Part shown: in pieces, positions 21,866-23,390 of the stretch
Position numbering within the stretch: the first letter of the stretch is position 1
Layout of the letters: the number at the start of each line of letters is the position of its first letter
Source: Aerococcus sp. Group 1
GTDB taxonomy: Bacteria > Bacillota > Bacilli > Lactobacillales > Aerococcaceae
Assembly (NCBI RefSeq): GCF_000193205.1
Contig: NC_015278.1
Coordinates: forward strand, 1,550,001 to 1,614,000
Direction: 5' to 3'
Length of the DNA: 64,000 nucleotides
The notes under the pieces: model-generated
What the model was told of the DNA's origin: nothing
Seen by the model: only the letters and a program-made list of their open reading frames with translations
Databases searched by the model: none
Translations under genes and position numbers: made by a program

Positions 21866-22491
21866 TTAATCTCCCTCTCCTAGATAATTCTCAACAATAT
21901 CGTCAATAAAACGGTCAACTTTCAAATGTTCTGCCTTAATGATGGTTTGGATCCGTTTTACCGCTAGATCCACATCATCATTTTCCACCACATAGTCATA
22001 TTGGGTCATTAATTGCAACTCGGTACGAGCCTTGTCCATCCGTTCCGCAATCACTTCTGGACTGTCCGTTCCCCGGTTAACAATGCGTGATTCCAATTCT
22101 CTTAAGTTTGGTGGTGCCAGAAAAATGAAAACCCCATCAGGCATCCGCCGTTTTACCTGCAAGGCACCCTGCACTTCAATTTCTAAGAAGACATCCTTTC
22201 CTGCATTTATCATTTTATCAATGTAATCCAGGGGTGTCCCGTAAAAATTTCCTACATATTCCGCATATTCTAACAACTTTTCATCTTCGATCATTTTCTC
22301 GAACTCTTCTCGCGATACGAAAAAATAATCCTTTCCGTCTACTTCCCCTTCACGTGGTTGACGTGTAGTTGCTGAAACGGAATAGAAAAATTGATTTTTT
22401 CTTGATCAGTCTCAAATAATGCTTTACGGACCGTCCCTTTACCTACCCCAGAGGGTCCTGAAAGCACAACCAATAATCCTTTCGATTTCAT
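21866..22491 (-). pseudogene. gmk: Guanylate kinase, frameshifted as read (probable homopolymer error)
   Basis: Gmk converts GMP to GDP and is normally essential. The ATG at 22491 opens [20 protein letters not shown] (P-loop), reaches DQEKINFS, and then runs off frame to a stop. The second frame resumes as [22 protein letters not shown] and continues through [15 protein letters not shown] and [15 protein letters not shown] to the end. One extra base in either the T5 run (22386-22390) or the A6 run (22395-22400) of the coding strand gives a complete 208-residue enzyme. Since the gene should be essential, a sequencing gap is the likeliest cause. Confidence 0.94.
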
Positions 22492-22747
22492 AGAACACCT
22501 TTCATCCTTTAAAAGTTTATAAAGTGTATCATACCACAAATTAAAAGACTTGTCGTAAATTATTTAAATAAAGTAAATAATTAAAAGTCCTTATTCTTTT
22601 CATGACTAAGTGTCGCATGGAATAAATTGGCAGCCACACGATCTTTATTAGAGTTAAGTTCATTTTAGCATAGATTTATCCCTTTGAAGCGATTTTACTT
22701 CACTTAAAAGCTTTCTCACCTATAAAAAACATCTGTTCGAATTTCAC

Positions 22748-22800
22748 TTGACACTAGAACGAACGTTCGCTATACTATAAATCAGTTAGAACAAACGTTC
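22748..22800 (+). promoter_or_regulatory. SOS promoter with two LexA (DinR) boxes
   Basis: A near-perfect sigma-A promoter, TTGACA (22748-22753), 17-nt spacer and TATACT (22771-22776), has a GAAC-N4-GTTC box (22757-22768) inside the spacer. A second box GAAC-AAAC-GTTC (22789-22800) lies just after the -10. The box form is the Firmicutes LexA operator. The centres are 32 bp apart, about three helical turns, so two dimers could bind one face. The site serves the gene at 22839. Confidence 0.88.
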
Positions 22801-22838
22801 TGAAATTGTTTATTTTTATTATTTAAGGAGGGTCTAAG

Positions 22839-23219
22839 ATGCAAAATCCAAGTCAATCGTTCTCATGGAATAGCTTAATTCATAATATTATCCCCTTAAG
22901 TTCACAGACAAACGTCGCTAGACCGTTACAGTCCATTAATAAAACCCCCGCTGAAAAGCTTACAGACCTAGCGCCTAGTTCAGAAAATGACGACCTATCC
23001 AGTCAGATCAAGGATTACCAAAAACAACAGCTTCCCGTCTACATTACCGTTAGACGCAATATGGGTAATATGTATACCAAGGACACCCTCTTTGGCTATT
23101 TTCAAAAATATTCTTCCCATCCCCAAAGTCAAATGGTTATCTTTGAAGATATCGATAGCGAGGTTAACTTTATGATTCCTAAGCAAGAAATCCTTGCCAT
23201 CTGGGAACCCAATGCCTAG
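22839..23219 (+). CDS. LexA-controlled protein of unknown function
   Basis: I do not recognise this 126-residue protein. It has no signal peptide or membrane segment, so it is unlike the SOS division inhibitors YneA and SosA. The N-terminal ~70 residues are polar and low in pattern. The C-terminal ~60 (from LPVYITVRRNMG to QEILAIWEPNA) look like a compact beta barrel: alternating hydrophobic strands, a central GYFQKY turn and a final IPKQEILAIW strand. This is faintly like the C-terminal part of YolD-type proteins that accompany SOS Y-family polymerases, but that link is inference. AAGGAGG stands 7-8 nt before the ATG, and two LexA boxes overlap its promoter. Confidence 0.75.
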   Translation: MQNPSQSFSWNSLIHNIIPLSSQTNVARPLQSINKTPAEKLTDLAPSSENDDLSSQIKDYQKQQLPVYITVRRNMGNMYTKDTLFGYFQKYSSHPQSQMVIFEDIDSEVNFMIPKQEILAIWEPNA

Positions 23220-23310: not shown

Positions 23311-23390
23311 AAAAAGCCAGTTTACTCACTTTCTTGATGTCCTTCCTAAGCGAAGCACTAAGAAATCCCCCAGAGAGTAAACTGGTTTTT
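23311..23390. terminator. Bidirectional terminator between convergent genes
   Basis: Arms AGCCAGTTTACTC (23315-23327) and GAGTAAACTGG (23375-23385) enclose a ~45-nt loop. TTTTT follows on the plus strand and AAAAA precedes it, giving CTTTTTC on the minus strand. It lies between the SOS gene and cls. Confidence 0.75.

Follow-up and report, generated by a model that had tools for sequence, protein, structure and literature searches.

A LexA-boxed gene of Aerococcus and other Lactobacillales predicted to encode a protein with a YolD domain and an N-terminal arm unlike that of YolD

The window analyzed here, the whole 64,000-nucleotide stretch of Aerococcus sp. Group 1 DNA, carries on its plus strand a short coding sequence (22839..23219, ATG at 22839, 126 residues) that we refer to as the SOS gene; its homologues are called the family. 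Judged from sequence comparisons, the gene is a conserved member of the LexA regulon of Lactobacillales, and the evidence supports a product that has the YolD domain but differs from YolD in its N-terminal arm. Both domain and regulon were known before; the family, its spread and the difference in the arm were not described in the literature searched.

All promoter elements are located on the plus strand. A -35 element TTGACA (22748..22753), a -10 element TATACT (22771..22776) at a spacing of 17 bp, and a ribosome-binding site AGGAGGG (22826..22832) were read by eye. LexA box 1, GAACGAACGTTC (22757..22768), lies inside the -35/-10 spacer, and LexA box 2, GAACAAACGTTC (22789..22800), lies 12 bp beyond the -10 element. 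Both are perfect GAAC-N4-GTTC sequences, and their spacing is 32 bp. The coordinates confirm a preliminary description of this DNA, which had reported a consensus promoter with one box in the spacer and one after the -10. A third LexA-type box that had been missed there, AAACATCTGTTC (22727..22738, AAAC-N4-GTTC, one mismatch), is found in register 5' of the -35 element. No further perfect box is present in the window. The chance expectation is 0.96 perfect boxes per window, and at least two were reached in 22 of 100 shuffles; therefore, the count of two is unremarkable by itself. As a control within the window, the 260 bp upstream of 43 open reading frames (ORFs) of at least 150 residues were inspected. 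None contained a perfect box and none contained two boxes at ≤1 mismatch, which makes the clustering in one promoter unusual. The three-box pattern, composed after inspection of the sequence, matched once in the window and never in 100 shuffles.

A relative of the SOS gene was present in all 15 Aerococcus genomes, the nearest of which (G001) has 22% of sampled 31-letter words in common with the window. With the window counted, 15 of 16 Aerococcus promoters contained at least two perfect boxes, and all 16 contained at least two boxes at ≤1 mismatch; the exception, G002, has one perfect and two imperfect boxes. Eleven of the 16 had at least three boxes, although two of the boxes counted, the third in G009 and the fourth in G007, fall out of register and could have arisen by chance. 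An upstream box in a register similar to that of AAACATCTGTTC was found in G001, G002, G003, G006, G007, G011, G012, G014, and G015. Across the Aerococcus boxes GAAC and GTTC are kept and the inner four bases are variable. The genus profile A1 matched 41 of 76 genomes of the bacterial family at E ≤ 0.1, 26 of them outside Aerococcus. The bacterial family is used here as delimited by the tool and takes in genus g19, whose proteins and promoter match named Trichococcus loci. Each of the 26 relatives outside Aerococcus has a perfect box directly 5' of the -10 and AAAC-N4-GTTC before the ribosome-binding site, and this holds even at the weakest A1 match among them (E 0.0136). Many of the 35 genomes lacking an A1 match still have the promoter and a family ORF by pattern search. 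The preliminary description had proposed tight LexA control and suggested a comparison of both boxes in related genomes; they were found conserved. Operators kept in all 16 Aerococcus promoters, the best evidence that the boxes are real, and in all 26 relatives point to such control.

Beyond the bacterial family, the pattern GAACN4GTTC-N0-2-TATANT-N8-20-RAACN4GTTC was found in 119 of 395 Lactobacillales genomes, representing 40 of 80 genera, and a reversed-pattern control yielded none. Reading covered 67 matches at 66 loci out of the 119 genomes, and 58 of these matches precede a family ORF. The gene had originally been regarded as an orphan. Single-sequence searches suggested the same: searching genome contigs with the window gene retrieved no relative, and a single other protein cluster among 5.8 billion, from Aerococcus and with 97% identity, matched the window protein. 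This status was overturned by the profiles and the promoter pattern, which find the gene conserved over much of Lactobacillales. Profile A4 matched 87 of 148 Lactobacillales genomes at E ≤ 0.01. Ordinary YolDs and weak, box-less homologues from bacterial family f4 are among these 87, and two Aerococcus members, G001 and G015, escape the profile. Across the class, nine of 200 genomes matched A4, all of them f4; the lack of matches outside the order carries limited weight since the profile misses those two members. The f4 proteins (L365, L366, L367, L368, and L381) are weak full-length homologues (E 3e-8 to 2e-5) with no LexA-type boxes upstream, which suggests a LexA-independent branch of the family, and we infer that f4 is a Streptococcus-like family.

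The nine remaining promoter matches comprise five in f3, two in f8, and one each in G140 and G205. The latter two probably represent UvrX operons, because a YolD-type match lies ~1.5 kb further on. The five in f3 precede a protein of 66-72 residues with hydrophobic stretches. Such a protein, unrelated to the family and with long hydrophobic stretches, follows a double LexA box at L207, L208, L209, L210, and L278 (Enterococcus mundtii) and is a candidate SOS membrane protein. Among the named loci, a Y-family polymerase takes the place of the small gene behind the double-box promoter at L242 (Lacticaseibacillus sharpeae) and L252 (Staphylococcus auricularis). At L291 (Alicyclobacillus herbarius) a double-box promoter is followed by a protein of 119 residues that has a hydrophobic segment and an apparent LysM end, YneA-like by eye.

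The divergent neighbor gmk (21866..22539, minus strand), whose reading frame is interrupted in the window, served as synteny marker. As in the window, it was divergent at 18 of 18 family loci of f9, which was taken as Lactobacillaceae by match to named contigs; one of these loci (G360, L227), which reads only 59 codons, is counted. Among the matches listed, 26 named Lactobacillaceae loci have a family ORF; gmk was divergent at 24 of them, and the other two end ~100 bp from the box. The sample of named loci comprised 42 of the 80 listed, the rest being omitted by organism name, and L237 (no ORF by rule) and L299 (54 codons) were excluded from the count. Over all 58 family loci, gmk was divergent within 1200 bp at 26 and within 450 bp at 23.

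The gene order also leads to a reported induction. In Lactiplantibacillus herbarum (L258) the family gene is flanked by gmk and by an apparent opu-type transporter operon encoded on the opposite strand, as named by eye. By this gene order, not by sequence, lp_1611 of Lactiplantibacillus plantarum WCFS1 is probably the Lactiplantibacillus counterpart of the SOS gene: it adjoins an opu-type transporter and, according to the available part of a 2007 report (PMC2174512), has a LexA/DinR motif and was induced 32.9-fold with H2O2. That part lists it as "unknown" in a single array study, and no other paper with the lp_1611 locus tag was found in the literature searched. Because the operators are conserved and a syntenic counterpart is reported to be induced, LexA control of the SOS gene is well supported. 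The preliminary description had also offered the gene as an undescribed SOS effector. As regards function this stands, none being assigned in the literature searched; strictly it does not, given the report on lp_1611 and the UniRef label "YolD-like family protein" on two of the members listed (P0013 and P0070).

The regulon of G001 was surveyed through its perfect boxes, of which there are 14 sites, compared with 35 for the reversed pattern. Those 17-81 bp before ORFs belong to the SOS gene (two), recA, a detached YolD (L033), a 99-residue ORF, and a UvrX-type polymerase. A further site is 191 bp upstream of an ORF of 204 codons, and the remaining sites fall within coding frames. The 99-residue ORF (L164, 1185-1484; site 1147780) has its box 17 bp upstream. 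Tandem perfect boxes were confined to the SOS gene (14 genomes) and the second Y-family polymerase (seven genomes) across the 15 Aerococcus genomes. A LexA DNA-binding domain was detected in all 15, partial in G010, and no perfect box was found in any of the 16 loci retrieved by the LexA domain search of Aerococcus.

According to structure models, the product is a flexible arm followed by a helix and an SH3/Sm-like barrel. The N-terminal arm (residues 1-48, 22839..22982) is predicted to be flexible and is without the YolD arm motif K[WYF]...E[HQL]. The modeled helix (residues 49-63, 22983..23027) begins the YolD-like domain, and the modeled five-strand barrel (residues 67-122, 23037..23204) is of the SH3/Sm-like, WYL type. 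Helix and barrel are both present in the models of two distant family members. The closest solved structures to the models were WYL domains (PafBC, BrxR, CapW, and DriD) and Hfq; several of the matched WYL/Hfq entries are complexes with single-stranded DNA or RNA. Foldseek against the PDB returned nothing below E 0.001. Its top rows were ribosomal protein L19 and the PafBC WYL domain, and L19 was rejected as a relative, its match being taken as common SH3-type topology only. Two further candidates, both judged by eye, were dropped: an SLF- or DLF-like stretch of the arm as a beta-clamp pentapeptide, which lacks the leading Q, and a mimic of the RecA N-terminal motif.

The absence of a recognized family, noted in the preliminary description, was borne out for the window protein by two sub-threshold Pfam matches only (E 0.053 and 0.12) and no match in NCBIfam or PHROGs. 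A viral library gave no match below E 0.001, and a PDB sequence search with profile A4 gave none. A membrane helix was likewise absent, as had been stated, with a maximum 19-residue hydropathy of 1.37 across 93 family members; hence the product is not YneA/SosA-like. The YneA/SosA division inhibitors are small and tightly LexA-controlled like the SOS gene. However, they have a membrane segment, which the SOS gene product lacks, and the SOS gene is not located beside lexA.

The relation to YolD/YqjX was assessed with hhalign. The family was divided into the groups AERO (13), F2 (9), F9 (43), and F1 (28, the rest of the family), and compared with OPER (6, YolD adjoining UvrX in Aerococcus) and YOLD (12, one gene included twice as L034 and L055). 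Within the family the scores, given as hhalign probabilities in percent, were 99.1 for F2-F9, 98.4 for AERO-F1, 97.1 for F1-F9, 96.6 for F1-F2, 89.0 for AERO-F2, and 80.7 for AERO-F9. Strong matches to YolD were obtained for F2-OPER (97.2, E 4e-11), F2-YOLD (94.7), F9-OPER (93.7), and F9-YOLD (92.6), with 97.9 for the known pair OPER-YOLD. Lower scores were obtained for F1-YOLD (74.5), AERO-OPER (42.8), AERO-YOLD (41.3), and F1-OPER (22.7). In the controls reversed profiles reached at most 2.4%, and for each of the six pairs tested all 60 column shuffles scored below the real alignment. The Aerococcus proteins are tied to YolD mainly via their Lactobacillales relatives, because the direct scores are just 41-43 compared with 92.6-97.2 for F2 and F9. 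The aligned region consists of the helix and the barrel, and the C-terminal small beta barrel with YolD resemblance that had been described is thus upheld by structure models and profiles alike.

The arm is where the two differ. K[WYF]...E[HQL] was found at 15 of 16 PF08863 loci and in none of 93 family members (88 distinct); five weak PF08863 rows (L035-L039) had been dropped. Five PF08863 loci lacking KW were read afterwards, and four had the KY or KF form and L137 none. With PF08863 itself, the window protein gave no YolD match at E up to 10, eight diverse members gave none, and the search of 15 Aerococcus genomes missed the family as well as the UvrX-adjoining YolD of G012. YolD/YqjX (PF08863), the proposed Gram-positive UmuD counterpart of the UvrX/YqjW polymerases, and the SOS gene product have in common their size, a flexible arm followed by a helix and an SH3-like barrel, and LexA control. 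In contrast to YolD/YqjX, the SOS gene product has neither a Pfam match nor the arm motif, and its gene was not found beside a Y-family polymerase. In the sections of PMC12926913 available, the YqjX arm is modeled to insert into YqjW, and small subunits having only this arm in common are described. The family is apparently their reverse, with the barrel common and the arm different, and a comparison of the two may reveal the role of each part.

No Y-family polymerase was seen by eye among the ORFs listed for 17-29 kb of the window, as the preliminary description had it. Four of the 15 Aerococcus genomes with the gene (G002, G008, G009, and G010, the assemblies of G008 and G010 being 85% complete) have a single PF00817 match with a DinB-type score. 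Among the 148 Lactobacillales genomes, seven with the gene (G018, G084, G088, G091, G153, G173, and G194) have a DinB-type match as the sole one, and in G119 and G133 the sole match is of the lower-scoring type. In all, DinB-type was the only kind of Y-family polymerase found in 11 genomes that have the gene, which suggests that the SOS gene needs no single type of these polymerases. The lower-scoring (UvrX-type) polymerase has a neighboring ORF that carries the YolD motif at 9 of its 12 Aerococcus loci. G001 has a LexA-boxed YolD elsewhere, and no YolD motif was found beside UvrX in G004 and G005. The UvrX-adjoining YolD of Aerococcus is a long form of 158-188 codons missed by the Pfam YolD model (L064, 219-719, and equivalents in L057-L061, L065, and L066).

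From these data, we consider the chances about even that the SOS gene encodes an accessory protein with a YolD domain, made on SOS induction, whose arm is directed to a different client involved in damage tolerance or replication. Of its two or three operators, one occupies the -35/-10 spacer and another sits immediately after the -10; they would hold the gene off until RecA-driven LexA cleavage releases it. The arm may then dock into a damage-tolerance or replication partner other than UvrX and not strictly DinB, with the beta clamp, PolC, DnaE, and RecA as candidates, and the barrel may make a protein or single-stranded-DNA contact. Docking is suggested by analogy because the arms of YqjX and UmuD' are modeled to insert into their polymerase. 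Three caveats attach to the evidence: the 58 family assignments behind the promoter pattern are mostly of sequences already in the scoring models, the YolD comparison set was chosen by the KW motif, and DinB-type and UvrX-type polymerases were split by PF00817 score alone. A LexA target that several bacterial families retain, with a stereotyped promoter of multiple operators, should bear on damage tolerance, mutagenesis, or growth arrest, and the literature searched has little on the SOS response of lactic acid bacteria and their relatives. Only tentatively, the protein, carried by much of Lactobacillales, may be a second kind of polymerase manager, its new arm aimed at a core replication factor and not at the UvrX polymerase, that acts in the SOS response as a brake on replication or division.

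A checkpoint role is the main alternative fitting the tight control. As an SOS growth brake, the protein would be a cytoplasmic inhibitor of division or replication restart, with multiple operators as leaky expression would be harmful. Its promoter is the most heavily operated one found in G001 and contains the sole conserved three-box array seen, and no small divergent yneA/sosA-like gene lies beside lexA at the two loci read (L076 and L080). However, a yneA-like gene was sought at just those two loci, the product has no membrane segment, its homology is to YolD and not to known division inhibitors, and box-less homologues occur in the Streptococcus-like f4. We judge a growth brake unlikely.

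It is also improbable that the protein is a detached small subunit of a UvrX-type mutasome, with uvrX and the SOS gene switched on separately by LexA and the proteins joining afterwards. The YolD-like domain and the restriction of tandem perfect boxes in Aerococcus to the SOS gene and the second Y-family polymerase would fit, and in G004 and G005, without a YolD motif beside UvrX, the gene could supply the partner. A precedent is proposed for Staphylococcus aureus, whose YolD (SACOL1986), described as a YolD homologue that partners UvrX, is LexA-controlled and unlinked to UvrX like the SOS gene (available parts of PMC6511836 and PMC11442139). However, the Aerococcus gene occurs in addition to such YolDs: UvrX mostly has its own adjoining YolD, or in G001 a LexA-boxed one elsewhere. 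The arm motif is absent from all 93 members, and the 4 Aerococcus and 7 other Lactobacillales genomes with a DinB-type match only also argue against it.

An Sm/Hfq-like RNA-binding or WYL-like sensor protein acting on gene expression after damage is very unlikely; WYL domains and Hfq are the closest solved structures, several with bound single-stranded DNA or RNA, but a common fold shows no function, the profile homology points to YolD, and no DNA-binding domain is attached. A chance occurrence of the two boxes in an ordinary promoter can practically be dismissed, since boxes and protein are conserved and the probable counterpart is reported induced, even if shuffled windows contain two perfect boxes fairly often (22 of 100).

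Two minor observations concern the surroundings of the gene. In the window the gmk sequence falls into two frames, listed with 66 and 142 codons, compared with one intact ORF of 224 codons in G001; because gmk is normally essential, a sequencing error is likely behind the split. About 100 bp 3' of the SOS gene, an inverted repeat agccagtttactc ... gagtaaactggtttt (window ~23315-23390, by eye) forms a possible terminator shared with cls.
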